A stretch of DNA of 64,000 nucleotides from Paenibacillus sacheonensis (lineage in GTDB: Bacteria > Bacillota > Bacilli > Paenibacillales > Paenibacillaceae), in contig NZ_JAAAMU010000005.1 of assembly GCF_009909195.1 (NCBI RefSeq), positions 248,001 to 312,000 on the forward strand. Reading direction: 5' to 3'. The first letter of the stretch is position 1, and every line of letters starts with the position of its first letter. Below the pieces are notes generated by a model that did no database searches, had not been told where the DNA came from, and worked only from the letters and a program-made list of their open reading frames with translations. The position numbers and the translations under genes are program-made. Positions 14,373 to 61,879 of the stretch are shown piece after piece.

Positions 14373-14418
14373 AAAACTCCGGAACATCGCTTCGAATGAA
14401 GCGATGTTCCGGAGTTTT
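14373..14418. terminator. Bidirectional terminator between HD-GYP gene and sufB
   Basis: A perfect 21-bp stem (14373-14393 with 14398-14418, core CCGGAACATCGC), loop GAAT, with an A-run on the left and T6 on the right. It serves both convergent units. Confidence 0.9.
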
Positions 14419-51564: not shown

Positions 51565-53205
51565 TTATCGCTCCCGGTATTCGATCGGTGTCATTTTCGC
51601 GACCCGTTTGAAAAATCTAGTGAAATACGCAGGCGATTCAAAGCCGATTTCCTGCGCGATTTCGTTCACTTTCAAGTTCGTCCCGCGCAGCAGCTCCTTC
51701 GCTTTCTCCATGCGGACGTGGATGACGTAGTCAGTAAGCGTGATGCCCGACAGCTTCTTGTATAAACGAGACAAATAGTACGGGTTCAAATAAACGATCT
51801 CCGCCATCCGGGTAAGCGATAAATCCTCGGCAATATGCGCGTGGACATAGGTTTCGATCGTTTGGATAACATCCCGGTACGGCGAGAACTCGGATTGGTT
51901 GCGCAGCAGGAAATAATGCGCGGCAATCTGCAGGAAGTAATCCGCTACGCCCTTCCAGTCCGCGAACGATTTCAATTCCACGCATTTGCCGAGATCGATC
52001 CGGCGTCCTATCGAGTGCGTCAATCCTGAGCGGTTCATGCAGGTCATGAACATGGAGGACAACGCCAGAAATATCTCCTGAACCGTGAACGTATGACGCT
52101 CGTTCCAATCCGGCAGCTTGTCCAGGAACGCAGCCATATGCTGCCGGAATGCTTCTTCGGAGCCGCTCTCGAGATACGATTCCAGTTTTTTCAGATCCGG
52201 TCCGAAATACTGACTTCTGTTTGGGCCCTCGTCATCATTTTCTTGTTCGATGGTCGAAGGGGAAGGTCCGAATTCATGCAGCATCATCTCTCTGCCCATT
52301 CCGATGCCATAGCTGATCTGCCATTTCATGCGATAATACGCTTCGGGCAGCTTGTTCCAATCCGTTTCCTTCGAGCCGATCAGAAAGGATACGCTAAGCT
52401 TCAACAGTTGATCCGCTTGCTTCTGCGTCATCTCTAAGCTCCCGTAGACGAAACGTTCCATGCTATCGTCATCCGCGGGATCGCGGGATTGCAGCAGCCA
52501 TACCCACTGATCGCTTTCGTATTTGACTTGCACGACATGCAGCCGCGCGCGCAAATATTCCTCCGCGATATTGTCAATCGCGAAGAGCAGCAATTCCTTG
52601 TCCGCGAGCGACATCCCGGTGCGCCACTGGTCGACCTTGCCCGTGACAAGCAGCACCGGTTGGCCCTGCCGCAGCGGAATTTGCATTTCCGCCAGCTGCT
52701 CCTCCCGAATCTCGGCGGCCGTTCGCGCGCCTTCCAGCCATTCCATCAAGAACGCTTTACGCAGCATAGGCAGCGCAAGGCTCATGCTGTCCTTTGCCTT
52801 CACGATCAACTCGTTGAGCTGCCACTCTTCTTTCAGCGCCAGACACGCCTTCTCCACGGCTTGCACGATCTTGGCATCGCCTTCGGTCTTGAGGACGTAT
52901 TCGATGCTGCCCGAACGAACGGCTTCCTGAATATATTTGAACTCATTGTATCCGGTCAGCATAATCACTTTGCAGTGCGCCCAAATCGATTTGGCCTGTC
53001 TCAGCACTTCAAGCCCGGATATGCCCGGCATATGTATATCCGTAAGCAGAATATCGATCTGTGTCGTATGGAGCCGCTTAATCGCCTCGTCGCCGGAATA
53101 GGCGCGGTACAATTCCAATTCCATGGATTCCGTATACTCGCTGAACATTTCAAATAGACCGTCCACGATGATCGTCTCATCGTCGGTAATCAACAACCGG
53201 TACAT
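51565..53205 (-). CDS. Response regulator of YesN type (receiver plus AraC HTH)
   Basis: 546 residues. The receiver domain has D8-D9 and the phosphorylated D56 (DILLTDIHMPG), with K at about 105. A long middle region (130-430) of the type found in YesN proteins leads to two AraC helix-turn-helix units (LTRMAEIVYLNPYYLSRLYKKLSGITL and VNEIAQEIGFESPAYFTRFFKRVAKMTP). It should activate the sugar-uptake and glycosidase genes downstream. GGAGG precedes the ATG. Confidence 0.95.
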   Translation of the reverse strand: MYRLLITDDETIIVDGLFEMFSEYTESMELELYRAYSGDEAIKRLHTTQIDILLTDIHMPGISGLEVLRQAKSIWAHCKVIMLTGYNEFKYIQEAVRSGSIEYVLKTEGDAKIVQAVEKACLALKEEWQLNELIVKAKDSMSLALPMLRKAFLMEWLEGARTAAEIREEQLAEMQIPLRQGQPVLLVTGKVDQWRTGMSLADKELLLFAIDNIAEEYLRARLHVVQVKYESDQWVWLLQSRDPADDDSMERFVYGSLEMTQKQADQLLKLSVSFLIGSKETDWNKLPEAYYRMKWQISYGIGMGREMMLHEFGPSPSTIEQENDDEGPNRSQYFGPDLKKLESYLESGSEEAFRQHMAAFLDKLPDWNERHTFTVQEIFLALSSMFMTCMNRSGLTHSIGRRIDLGKCVELKSFADWKGVADYFLQIAAHYFLLRNQSEFSPYRDVIQTIETYVHAHIAEDLSLTRMAEIVYLNPYYLSRLYKKLSGITLTDYVIHVRMEKAKELLRGTNLKVNEIAQEIGFESPAYFTRFFKRVAKMTPIEYRER

Positions 53206-53283
53206 CCTCTCATTCCTCCAGTAGGTTTACGCCAAGAAATATTTCTTATCTTAAACCAGTTGAACCGCAATAGCCAGCACGAC

Positions 53284-53320
53284 GAAAAAACGCAGCATGC
53301 GAATAATCGCGTGCTGCGTT
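53284..53320 (-). terminator. Terminator of prkA
   Basis: Stem AACGCAGCA/TGCTGCGTT (53289-53297 with 53312-53320), extended by GCG/CGC. On the minus strand it is followed by T6. It lies beyond the structured repeat, so the repeat is inside the prkA transcript. Confidence 0.85.
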
Positions 53321-53356
53321 GCATGTTGGAAGGCCCGTTTTGTTCGGATTTGCGGC

Positions 53357-53421
53357 GAAAAGTGACCGGAGATCGGAATGGACCGTTTGGAAACCCATTC
53401 CGACCGCAGGTCATGCTTTTC
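53357..53421 (-). repeat. Structured repeat element, copy 1 (3' UTR of prkA)
   Basis: A 65-nt near-complete hairpin 9 nt after the prkA stop. Arms on the plus strand: GAAAAG-T-GACC-GGA-GATC-GGAATGG and CCATTCC-GACC-GCA-GGTC-A-TG-CTTTTC. The stem has a central GGA/GCA mismatch and a two-base bulge. It closely matches a second copy at 60624-60765. Each arm also contains a GACC-N3-GGTC-like unit of its own. Confidence 0.8.
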
Positions 53422-53430
53422 ACTACGCGA

Positions 53431-55329
53431 TTAGCGATTCAACAGGCTGCCGACATAACGAAGCAGTTCGTTGGCGCAGACCGGGCAATAGCCATGCTCG
53501 TCGATCAGGCGTTTGGACACCTCGTTAATCCGCTTCAATTGCTTCTCGTCCGGCGTTTTGGTGGACGTCGTGATTTTGACGATATCCTTCAAATCCGTGA
53601 ACAGCTTCTTCTCGATGGCTTCGCGCAGCCGCTCGTGGCTGTAGTAATCGAACTTCTTGCCTTTGCGCGAGTAGGACGAGATCCGAATCAGGATTTCTTC
53701 CCGGAACGCCTTCTTCGCATTCTCGGACACGCCGATCTGCTCCTCGATGGAACGCATGAGCCGTTCGTCCGGATCCATCTCTTCGCCCGTGAGCGGATCC
53801 TTGATTTTGGCCCAGTTGCAGTAGGACTCGATGTTGTCGAGGTAGTTCTCGAACAGCGTCCTCGCCGACTCTTCGAAGGAGTAGACGAAGGCCTTCTGGA
53901 TCTCCTTCTTCGCCAAGCCGTCGTATTCTTTTCTCGCGACGGAGATGAAGTTTAAATATCGTTCGCGTTCTTCCTTGGTGATGGAAGGATGCTGATCCAG
54001 GCCGTCCTTAAGCGCGCGCAGCACGTCGAGCGCATTGATGCACTGCAGGTCCTGCTTGATTAAGGCGCTGGATATCCGGTTGATGACATAACGCGGATCG
54101 ATCCCCGACATGCCCTCTTCGATGTACTCGCTTTGCATTTCCTTCAGGTCGGCTTCCTTGTAGCCTTCCACTTCCTCGCCGTCGTACATGCGCATTTTCT
54201 TCACGAGATCCATGCCCTGCTTCTTCGTTTCCTTGAGCCGGGTCAGGATGGAGAAGATGGCTGCCGAGCGCAGGGAATGCGGCGCGATATGGATATGCTT
54301 CATGTCGCTCTGACCGATCAGCTTATTGTAGATTTTCTCTTCCTCGGATACTTTCAGGTTATACGGAATCGGCATGACGATCATCCGTGATTGAAGCGCT
54401 TCGTTCTTCTTGTTCGCAATGAACGATTTGTACTCCGTCTCGTTCGTATGCGCAATGATGAGCTCATCCGCCGATATGAGCGCGAACCGGCCCGCCTTGA
54501 AATTACCCTCCTGCGTCAGCGACAGCAAATTCCATAAGAACTTCTCGTCGCACTTCAGCATTTCCTGGAACTCCATCAGACCCCGGTTCGCTTTGTTGAG
54601 CTCCCCGTCGAAGCGGTAAGCCCGCGGATCCGACTCGGAACCGAATTCCGTAATGGTCGAGAAATCGATGCTGCCCGTCAGATCGGCGATATCCTGCGAC
54701 TTCGGATCGGAAGGACTGAACGTCCCGATGCCCACGCGGTTCTCCTCCGATACGAGCACCCGTTCCACCTGTACGTTCTCGATCTCGCCGCCGAACTCCG
54801 TCTTCAACCGCATTTGGCAGGAAGGACATAGATTGCCTTCGATGCGGACGCCGAGCTCGCGTTCCGCTTCCGCCCGGAGCTCATTCGGAATCAGATGAAG
54901 CGGTTCTTCGTGCATCGGGCAGCCTTTAATGGCATAGATTGAACCTTTGTGCGTACGCGAGAACTGTTCCAGTCCTCGTTTGAGCATGGTAACGATCGTG
55001 GACTTCCCGCCGCTGACGGGACCCATGAGCAGCAAGATCCGTTTTCTCACATCGAGCCGACGGGCCGATGAATGAAAGTATTCCTCTACCAGTTTCTCAA
55101 CGGCACGATCCAAGCCGAATATTTCTTGTTCGAAAAACTTGTATTTCTTCGTTCCGCTACTGTCTTCAACCACCCCAAACGACTCAATCATGTCATAGAC
55201 ACGAGCATGCGCAGTCATGGCTGGAGTTGGATCCTGTTTCAGCAGCTCGATGTAATCCTTGAAAGAGCCCTGCCAAGCCAGCTTCTCGCTTTCCGCCTTG
55301 TACTCCGAAATCCGTTTCAAAATATCCAT
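53431..55329 (-). CDS. prkA: Serine protein kinase PrkA
   Basis: 632 residues, as in B. subtilis (631). The N-terminal AAA part has the Walker A GPVSGGKSTI; a zinc-like CxxC pair (NLCPSCQMRL) follows, then the PrkA C-terminal domain and a CPVCANELL block near the end. PrkA is linked to sporulation in Bacillus and may also act as an ATP-dependent protease. The ATG at 55329 is fixed by GAGGAGG upstream. Its usual partners yhbH and spoVR are elsewhere in the window. I could not see a convincing sigma-E promoter ahead of it. Confidence 0.96.
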   Translation of the reverse strand: MDILKRISEYKAESEKLAWQGSFKDYIELLKQDPTPAMTAHARVYDMIESFGVVEDSSGTKKYKFFEQEIFGLDRAVEKLVEEYFHSSARRLDVRKRILLLMGPVSGGKSTIVTMLKRGLEQFSRTHKGSIYAIKGCPMHEEPLHLIPNELRAEAERELGVRIEGNLCPSCQMRLKTEFGGEIENVQVERVLVSEENRVGIGTFSPSDPKSQDIADLTGSIDFSTITEFGSESDPRAYRFDGELNKANRGLMEFQEMLKCDEKFLWNLLSLTQEGNFKAGRFALISADELIIAHTNETEYKSFIANKKNEALQSRMIVMPIPYNLKVSEEEKIYNKLIGQSDMKHIHIAPHSLRSAAIFSILTRLKETKKQGMDLVKKMRMYDGEEVEGYKEADLKEMQSEYIEEGMSGIDPRYVINRISSALIKQDLQCINALDVLRALKDGLDQHPSITKEERERYLNFISVARKEYDGLAKKEIQKAFVYSFEESARTLFENYLDNIESYCNWAKIKDPLTGEEMDPDERLMRSIEEQIGVSENAKKAFREEILIRISSYSRKGKKFDYYSHERLREAIEKKLFTDLKDIVKITTSTKTPDEKQLKRINEVSKRLIDEHGYCPVCANELLRYVGSLLNR

Positions 55330-55781
55330 GCCGTACCTCCTCTCGTCCATCCCGGTGTTCCTAGCTGCCTCTGCCATGCGGGTCGTGGGCGGCATTCGAA
55401 CGTTTTCCCACCATCTAAAGCTGCCCGGCATTTTTTATTGAAGTAATACAATCCTATGCGCTTTCGTAAAGGAAGTTGCCCAATAATTTAAACAAGTTTT
55501 CAACAAAAACCGCCTTCGTTAAGCGGTTCTTTTACAAAATCGAAACGCGCTTCGCGGAAGCGAACAGGCATCGCGCCGCCGTCCGATCGCTTGGAAAGCC
55601 CGCTGCGCCAACGCTTTTCCACCTCTGCGCCGAAATGTCGAAGCAGAAGAAAAATCGACTTTTTCCGTGCTCGGAGTCCGAAGAAATCTATGACAGCCGA
55701 TGTCATTCCCAAATATAGCTGAGGGCCGGGCTTGAATATGTTATAATCGCCAAAGAATCTCCGTTGAAGGGAGGGCGGGAA
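55330..55781. other. Intergenic stretch between prkA and the DUF2161 gene
   Basis: About 450 nt without a gene that I accept. It contains an extended -10 (TGTTATAAT, 55739-55747) about 34 nt ahead of the DUF2161 start, and a small inverted repeat AACCGC/GCGGTT at 55508-55528. An AT-rich tract lies near 55430-55500 on the prkA side; the best -35/-10 pair there is weak. Confidence 0.5.
55739..55747 (+). promoter_or_regulatory. Extended -10 promoter of the DUF2161 gene
   Basis: TGTTATAAT has the TGN extension and a consensus -10. No recognisable -35 is needed in that case. Confidence 0.55.
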
Positions 55782-60457: not shown

Positions 60458-60534
60458 GCTCTTAGCTCTTACACGTAGTTCTTGCTCTTACATTAAGTTA
60501 AGCTCTTAGCTCTTACTCGTAGTTCTTGCTCTTG
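60458..60534 (+). repeat. Pair of 33-nt direct repeats in CTCTTAGC-rich sequence
   Basis: A unit starting GCTCTTAGCTCTTAC occurs at 60458-60490 and at 60502-60534 with two differences over 33 nt and a 44-nt period. Shorter degenerate copies of CTCTTAGC flank the pair. Confidence 0.8.
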
Positions 60535-60623: not shown

Positions 60624-60765
60624 AAAAGTGACCGGAGGTCGGTTGGAGGCGGAAAAACGAAGTGGTCGCCTTTGTAGTCGGATTTCTACCATTTCTGAAT
60701 GTACCATTCCAGAAATCCGACTACAACAGCGATTGAAGACCCAACCGACCGCAGGTCATGCTCTT
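60624..60765 (-). repeat. Structured repeat element, copy 2 (3' side of serC)
   Basis: Outer arms on the plus strand are AAAAG-T-GACC-GGA-GGTC-GGTTGG (60624-60646) and CCAACC-GACC-GCA-GGTC-A-TG-CTCTT (60741-60765). The inside is longer than in copy 1. It folds a 5-bp hairpin AGGCG/CGCCT, then a perfect 16-bp stem (TTGTAGTCGGATTTCT at 60672-60687 with 60711-60726) capped by GAATG/CATTC. The element begins 19 nt after the serC stop. Confidence 0.8.
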
Positions 60766-60784: not shown

Positions 60785-61879
60785 CTACCCGTTACGCTTC
60801 ATAAAGTCACCCATGAAATCCGCAAGCGCCTTGCAGCTCTCCAGCGGCACGGCATTGTACGTCGATGCGCGCAGCCCCCCGACGCTCCGATGCCCCTTCA
60901 GACCGACGAAGCCATGCTGCTCGGATTCCTTGGCGAATTGCTTCTCCAGCTCTTCCGTACCGAGACGGAACGTGATGTTCATCGACGAACGGCTGGCGAC
61001 GTCGGCGAAACCGCGGTAGAAACCGCCGCTTTGATCGATCGTGTCGTAGATCAGCTTCGTTTTGTCGCGGTTGAACTGCTCCATGGCAGCGACGCCTCCG
61101 CGTTCTTTCACCCATTGGAGCATCAGGCCGACCAGGTAGACCGAGAAGGACGGCGGCGTATTATACAGCGAATTGTTCTTCGCATGCGTGTCGTAACGAA
61201 GCATGGTCGGAATCGTCTTCGGGCTTTCCGCGATCAAATCCTCGCGCACGATAACGATCGTCACGCCCGAAGGTCCCAGGTTTTTCTGAGCGCCGGCATA
61301 GATCATGCCGAATTTGCTCACATCGACCGGGCGGCTTAGGATATCGCTCGACATGTCGCCGATCAGCGTAACGTCGCCCGTATCGGGATAGGCCGCATAT
61401 TGCGTGCCTTCGATCGTTTCATTCGACGTGATGTGCAGGTAGGCGGTATCGGCAGGCAGCTGAATGTCGCTCAATGCCGGAATACGGTTGAATTTGTCGG
61501 CTTCCGAAGTCGCGGCAATCGCCGTCGATCCGAACAGTTTCGCTTCCTTATATGCCTTCTCAGCCCAGCTGCCCGTATGCACGAACGCAGCCGTTTTGCC
61601 CGGCGTCAGCAGATTCATCGGAATCATGGCGAACTGCGTGCTGGCTCCGCCTTGCAGGAACAATACTTTATAATGGCTGGGAATGCCGAATAATTCACGA
61701 AGCAGCGATTGCGCCCCGTCGTTTACGCCTTCAAACACGCTGCTGCGGTGGGACATTTCCATAATGGACATCCCGGTTCCCGCATAATCGATAAACTCCC
61801 GTTGGGCTTGCTGCAGCACTTCCAGCGGCAGAGCCGCCGGTCCGGCATTAAAGTTATACGCGCGATTCGTCACGGACAC
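60785..61879 (-). CDS. serC: Phosphoserine aminotransferase SerC
   Basis: 364 residues. FNAGPAALPLEVLQQAQ at the start, GGASTQFAMIPMNLL, and the PLP lysine in YAGAQKNLGPSGVT are characteristic. HRSVGGLRASTYNAVP near the end contributes to substrate binding. It makes phosphoserine from 3-phosphohydroxypyruvate. The start is GTG 61879 or the GTG two codons later; GGAG lies at 3 or 9 nt. Strong promoter upstream. Confidence 0.96.
   Translation of the reverse strand: MSVTNRAYNFNAGPAALPLEVLQQAQREFIDYAGTGMSIMEMSHRSSVFEGVNDGAQSLLRELFGIPSHYKVLFLQGGASTQFAMIPMNLLTPGKTAAFVHTGSWAEKAYKEAKLFGSTAIAATSEADKFNRIPALSDIQLPADTAYLHITSNETIEGTQYAAYPDTGDVTLIGDMSSDILSRPVDVSKFGMIYAGAQKNLGPSGVTIVIVREDLIAESPKTIPTMLRYDTHAKNNSLYNTPPSFSVYLVGLMLQWVKERGGVAAMEQFNRDKTKLIYDTIDQSGGFYRGFADVASRSSMNITFRLGTEELEKQFAKESEQHGFVGLKGHRSVGGLRASTYNAVPLESCKALADFMGDFMKRNG

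Follow-up and report, generated by a model that had tools for sequence, protein, structure and literature searches.

Several families of short repeats and structured DNA elements have been described in bacteria. QMITE2 of Coxiella burnetii is described with direct repeats of 7-9 bp, terminal inverted repeats of 23-29 bp and a core of 113-145 bp, in mostly 3' untranslated positions (summary in PMC10969869). ERIC and RU-1 of enterobacteria are, by their descriptions, short intergenic repeats of MITE-like character, RU-1 being 127 bp long (summaries in PMC10969869 and PMC2759123), and BOX, RUP and SPRITE of Streptococcus pneumoniae are described as clustered intergenic repeats of a Firmicute (PMC10969869, same summary). 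Integron attC sites are called structured DNA elements, with arms that vary and nevertheless pair (as outlined in PMC8632094).

Two hairpins that follow genes in the window, i.e., the whole stretch of 64,000 nucleotides of Paenibacillus sacheonensis analysed here, are very probably copies of a short non-coding MITE-like mobile DNA family of Paenibacillaceae with a DNA fold. By description only, the element resembles QMITE2 in its 6-7 bp direct repeats (at two sites), its core of about 126-143 nt and its frequent position after genes; it differs in host group, in a covarying core with few G-U pairs, in a three-way junction with fixed kinds of loop, and in that no source IS was found. Like ERIC and RU-1 it is short, intergenic and MITE-like, but those belong to another phylum; tandem clusters occur as they do for BOX, RUP and SPRITE, and the arms are variable but paired as in attC. 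The boxA-B-C modules of BOX are not seen in the element. It is best classed as a MITE-like family of Paenibacillaceae, as yet without a name, whose three-way DNA fold is unusually conserved; by descriptions it is set apart from QMITE2, ERIC (the same as RU-1) and BOX. Searches of open-access papers returned no description of the family, which is weak evidence because subscription papers lie mostly outside its scope.

Two copies in the window and their family

Copy 1 (53357-53421) reads AAAAG-TGACC-GGA-GATC-GGAATGG...CCATTCC-GACC-GCA-GGTC-ATG-CTTTT and copy 2 (60624-60765) reads AAAAG-TGACC-GGA-GGTC-GGTTGG...CCAACC-GACC-GCA-GGTC-ATG-CTCTT, both on the plus strand. Each adjoins a minus-strand gene: the stop of prkA (53431-55431; PF08298 and PF06798) lies 9 nt beyond copy 1, and that of a class-V aminotransferase gene (60785-61879; open reading frame and domain match), here called serC, lies 19 nt beyond copy 2. 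The first-pass annotation had described the arms, loops, orientation and stop-codon distances of both hairpins, and the sequence bears out all of them; it had also placed a prkA terminator after copy 1, where we find a short inverted repeat that a simple terminator scan of 53200-53450 does not flag.

Copy 1 contains an internally deleted element core of 55 nt, GTGACC...GGTCATGC (53362-53416, plus strand; 45.8 bits, E 1.2e-6), the GGTCATGC end being its right side, 14 nt from the prkA stop. Its parts are a left mini-hairpin GACC-GGA-GATC (53364-53374) and a right mini-hairpin GACC-GCA-GGTC (53402-53412), both from a motif search, and between them the mutually pairing inner arms GGAATGG (53375-53381) and CCATTCC (53395-53401), seen in both sequence and fold. 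Copy 2 contains a full-length core of 134 nt (60628-60761, plus strand; 133.6 bits, E 1.9e-27), in which the motif search finds the left mini-hairpin GACC-GGA-GGTC (60630-60640) and the right mini-hairpin GACC-GCA-GGTC (60747-60757), and the inner arm GGTTGG (60641-60646; sequence and fold) pairs with CCAACC (60741-60746; sequence). Inside copy 2 are a long hairpin, P3, with arms TCGCCTTTGTAGTCGGATTTCT (60666-60687) and AGAAATCCGACTACAACAGCGA (60711-60732) from an inverted-repeat scan, and a small third hairpin, P2, AC-GAA-GT with a C(GAA)G loop (60657-60663), which is recognized from column pair 34-41 and the loop survey as the putative third junction branch and is absent from the energy fold; all of these parts lie on the plus strand, and the same inside is deleted from copy 1. 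On the best explanation, copy 2, next to the serC stop, is an old and complete element, and copy 1, next to the prkA stop, is what a deletion has left of one.

The exact motif GACCGNAGRTC occurs four times within the window, every time inside copy 1 or copy 2, and with up to one mismatch it gives 19 matches in the window against 9.6 expected. Folded as single-stranded DNA, copy 1 has z = -3.9 on the plus and -4.6 on the minus strand, and copy 2 has z = -7.0 and -6.7 on the two strands; the predicted DNA fold energies are nearly equal on the two strands (-35.2 vs -34.9). Elsewhere in the window, two 32-nt direct repeats, GCTCTTAGCTCTTAC(A/T)CGTAGTTCTTGCTCTT, lie 44 nt apart at 60458-60533, in a repetitive stretch between a response-regulator gene and copy 2, and a perfect 21-bp inverted repeat, AAAACTCCGGAACATCGCTTC, with 4 nt between its arms, lies at 14373-14418.

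The 7.44-Mb assembly has 14 places that match a 17-mer at the right end of the element, CCGACCGCAGGTCATGC, with 0-1 mismatch, and comparison of these places gave a longer common element of about 126-140 nt. Using a covariance model built from 14 full copies of this genome, we found 38 distinct places in it (47 rows, nine of which are the same place on the other strand). In 59 genomes, searched with a stricter filter that loses weak matches, 35 have a match at E <= 1e-3: this one, 20 of 21 other members of the genus, 9 of 14 from other genera of the family and 5 of 23 others of the order. Such a search had been suggested in the first-pass annotation, and its outcome establishes a real family. 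Moreover, a two-block pattern is found in at least 113 stretches of named genomes, and among the 80 titles of matches listed, 79 are Paenibacillus and one is Gorillibacterium. The element has no match in phage records and two among 72,556 plasmid records, both from Paenibacillus cellulosilyticus. Both core blocks are also present in nine viral contigs (L411-L419), mostly near one end of the fetched stretch, possibly as host DNA beside prophages.

For the whole family, 159 model rows were reduced to 145 copies from 22 genomes by dropping other-strand repeats and one doubly fetched place; copies from other genomes are a selection among the best-scoring matches listed, and the counts below use 138, 140, 141 or 130 copies according to limits on length and flanks, the T-run count (130) being without genome G006. 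Most full cores measure 126-143 nt, and the longest open stretch among 141 cores is 47 codons. The family is short, gene-less and many-copy, as for a MITE. Head-to-tail tandem arrays with a period of about 195-220 nt occur at loci L160 (G008), L178 (G017) and L467 (G066), and at the L313 site the alignment runs through the element in seven of eight genomes, the eighth having three tandem copies. The P2 hairpin is enlarged by tens of nucleotides in L254, L250, L252 and L123 (3' side of serC in G017); the enlarged hairpins have in common GAATGCTGCAT..CTGTC..GACAG..AACGCAAACCAATC, a similar sequence lies beside L008, and this common sequence may represent another family of repeats, nested within the element.

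Empty sites, placement and age

Eight genomes (G059-G066), reached via named loci of P. xylanexedens, P. taichungensis, P. pabuli, P. xylanilyticus, P. tundrae and P. barcinonensis, allow filled and empty sites to be compared. Site 1 is filled in G064 as TTAGAAT-[207 nt]-TTAGAAT, and the same repeat surrounds a shortened copy in G063; TTAGAAT is present once at the empty site in G059, G061 and G062, G060 and G066 are also without insert, and G065 is filled and rearranged. The TTA of this repeat is the stop of a 273-codon reading frame. At site 2, 28 nt before the ATG of a 229-codon frame, CAACTA is on both sides of the insert in G059 and once in the empty G062, with a flank identity of 94-96%. 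These comparisons show that, at two sites in other species, the element inserted precisely at an AT-rich position and is flanked by a direct repeat of 6-7 bp, and so support the mobile palindromic element that had been proposed at first as one of two readings. Clean target repeats are confined to these two sites; the L319 site and eight further comparisons give presence and absence without a clean repeat, one of them with a 14-nt imperfect repeat.

A young subfamily, present in other species, bears terminal inverted repeats (left TTSAACTAANCATTTACA, right TGTAAATANTCTTTAGTTSAA), and many young copies end in CTATATAARTTSAAC...GTTSAAYTTATATAG. The terminal-repeat pattern has 15-75 matches per genome in six genomes compared with 2-6 for the reversed pattern. 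The pattern is at background in P. sacheonensis (2 matches, reversed control 1) and in G006 (2 matches, control 5), so that terminal repeats are shown for other species and not here; in this genome the outer arms pair and have no one common sequence. Among 19 arm pairs, 13 have a direct repeat of at least 5, compared with 11.0 after shuffling, because the ends themselves are TATATA-like. None of the 19 encloses more than 400 nt in the fetched loci and blocks, and no autonomous or transposase partner was found there. Over 140 copies, the outer flanks pair at a mean of -17.6 kcal/mol with their own partner and -11.3 kcal/mol when swapped. Two terminator models were tried and rejected: for an intrinsic terminator, a T-run lies beside the arm in the transcribed direction in 12 of 130 copies and not at copy 1; for an element inside the loop of a host terminator, the T-run is rare and the arms at the clean site belong to the insert.

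Placement was read from genes called, independently of annotation, by a codon-usage gene caller made for this analysis. The 145 copies lie in 107 tandem, 28 convergent and one divergent gap, with one neighbour uncalled in nine, and none overlaps a called gene by more than 20 nt. Divergent gaps hold 1 of 136 copies and make up 35 of 369 gaps of at least 100 nt, counted over the window and the blocks fetched from other species. When the right-hand gene is antisense, its stop is 8-24 nt from the copy in 60 of 104 cases; the position just after stop codons that had been noted for the two hairpins is thus preferred across the family. When that gene is sense, its start is 36-45 nt from the copy in 17 of 39 cases, and both orientations relative to transcription occur. 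The commonest distance from copy to gene, 14-15 nt, is about one outer arm, which suggests that many elements end at the stop codon itself.

In 25 groups, copies occupy one site in two or more genomes. Examples, under gene names that are our own assignments, are the 3' side of lepA (seven genomes), purF-purM (seven), serC (five) and 43-45 nt before argG (four). In genomes G000-G017, the serC site has a full copy in 5 of 18, G017 having an apparent left half, and next to prkA a copy is present in 1 of 18 genomes of the genus. Cores of orthologous copies have a mean identity of 0.73, those from one genome 0.64 and all other pairs 0.60; the nearest relative is the orthologue for 40 of the 75 copies that have one and not for the other 35. 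Recent copies are seen as pairs up to about 95% alike in G006 and as tandem arrays in G008 and G017.

Fold, covariation and level of pairing

Helices were defined by column pairs with two to four Watson-Crick types. In 138 cores these are P1, which is interrupted by GNA opposite GNA, a two-pair step (columns 31-32/120-121), the mini-hairpin P2 (34-41) and the long hairpin P3. The step is AA/TT, AC/GT or GC/GC in P. sacheonensis and also GA/TC in other species. Of 141 copies, 122 retain both of the blocks TCGCCTTTG and CAACAGCGA, with unpaired CT/CA, and 118 have C(GNA)G at each end. One position of the end hairpins is changed jointly in four bases (ATAT in 23, GCGC in 18 and CGCG in 15 of 138 rows, the rest being mixed or gapped). 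The P2 loop is C(GNA)G or C(GNNA)G in 112 of 128 copies, on one strand, and its tetraloops have a pyrimidine at the third position in 64 and a purine in 14, so that the RNA GNRA rule is not obeyed. Triloops of the form d(cGNAg) are unusually stable as DNA. Stable DNA GNNA tetraloops, d(cGNNAg), are mentioned in PMC8373063. The integron attC site was considered as a candidate and rejected, since none of 141 copies has the RYYYAAC...GTTRRRY pair, which shuffled sequence shows in 3 of 141.

The arms of the two hairpins had been noted to change together, and in the family this covariation is strong. In the 14 copies of this genome, 96.3% of cells pair and 18 of 41 pairs have two-sided changes; in 112 rows, an alignment that was fitted to the structure and includes five other-strand repeats of a place, 95.2% of cells pair and 33 of 41 pairs have two-sided changes. 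None of 500 shuffles was as high in either test, and slid controls collapse in both. The kinds of pair differ from those of an RNA: over 33 pairs in 138 copies, the element helices are 92.9% Watson-Crick, 1.8% G-T and 1.6% A-C, compared with 86.8% Watson-Crick, 12.4% G-U and 0.4% A-C in SAM riboswitches of related genomes (25 pairs, n = 30). Read on the transcribed strand, wobble pairs make up 1.7% in copies antisense to both neighbours and 2.5% in copies sense to both. The G-U share varies with the structure chosen. The highest of those tried is the RNAalifold structure of the other strand (34 pairs; G-U 4.4%, A-C 1.7%), and the covariance model's own structure, which pairs columns 120-121 with 44-45 and not 31-32, has 4.2% (188 of 4525 cells), two thirds of it in three column pairs. 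The near balance of G-U and A-C points to pairing at the DNA level, a link weakened by the 4.2-4.4% of the alternative structures. We still read the covariation, as far as the sequences go, as looking like DNA pairing and not RNA pairing.

Alternative explanations and mobility

A cis-acting RNA structure (a 3'-UTR stabiliser, terminator or attenuator) selected as a folded transcript would agree with the preferred distances from antisense stops and sense starts, with the near avoidance of divergent gaps and with the 25 groups whose site is common between species. We consider it improbable, since the transcribed-strand wobble, even at the highest value of any structure, stays well below that of the SAM riboswitches, a T-run follows the outer arm in the transcribed direction in 11 of 93 stop-side and 1 of 37 start-side copies, both orientations to transcription occur, and Rfam gives no match, either for the window at the gathering score or for ten loci at values up to E = 1. 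The transcript 3' structure offered in the first-pass annotation is not supported, G-U being rare in both transcription directions and a U-tract seldom following the arms, and the mobile palindrome is the better supported of its two readings. The selection on folding that it also proposed is plausible, but not as the sole cause, because template switching at inverted repeats likewise yields complementary arms and inverted spacers, as described for yeast (account in PMC8604942). A purely mutational origin of the compensatory pattern, in which template switching uses one arm as the template for the other and at times inverts the interior while the fold is unselected after landing, is a serious contender, although we lean somewhat against it. 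It accounts for left arms that are complementary to the 3' end of the neighbour's coding sequence at one orthologous site (L040, L152, L171, L189), for own outer arms that pair better than orthologue-swapped ones in 21 of 24 groups, and for the inversion of a core in situ, with unchanged neighbour genes (G018 L215 vs G001 L194, 92% core identity); the purF-purM cores G001 L193 and G033 L230 are likewise inverted relative to G000 L049, and the nearly Watson-Crick-only changes also agree with it. It does not account for the retained mismatched motifs: the TCGCCTTTG / CAACAGCGA mismatch should be erased, yet both blocks persist in most copies, and so does C(GNA)G at both ends. Part of the covariation may be due to template switching by the polymerase.

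A REP or IS200/IS605-type end moved by a Y1 (HUH) transposase appears very improbable. The hairpins of fixed polarity with short loops and the many intergenic copies would fit it, and PF01797 has a match in three carriers (G016, G026, G051). However, PF01797 has no match in the P. sacheonensis genome, and matches in 7 of 58 genomes in all and 3 of 34 carriers searched, with one weak match, in G016, within the genus; moreover, Y1 transposition is not known to make flanking direct repeats, and direct repeats flank the insert. With the Y1 gene absent from this genome and most carriers, REP/RAYT and IS200/IS605 systems were rejected.

Returning to the MITE-like mobile DNA family, we envisage a core of about 126-143 nt between outer arms that are terminal inverted repeats in the young subfamily. 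The strand drawn here is predicted to fold, as single-stranded DNA or as a cruciform arm, into the three-way junction. The fold may persist because it is required by an enzyme that acts in trans, and also because replication across the palindrome would re-copy one arm from the other. A transposase that acts in trans and cuts with a stagger would mobilise the element; the direct repeats suggest that both strands of the target are cut at staggered positions, which makes a DDE-type transposase likelier than Y1. A bolder proposal, which we offer tentatively and think doubtful, is that the element moves via one DNA strand folded into the conserved three-way junction with its d(cGNAg)/d(cGNNAg) mini-hairpins, by a non-Y1 mover with a 6-7 bp stagger and by a structure-recognising route distinct from both DDE/TIR and HUH transposition.

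These results add a mobile element family to the large genus Paenibacillus. They also indicate that compensatory changes by themselves are no proof of a structured RNA, and that DNA-level and RNA pairing can be told apart quickly by the balance of G-U and A-C cells. The copies at the same intergenic sites across species (lepA, purF-purM, serC and the argG leader) form a natural set on which selection for DNA folding may be set against template switching.
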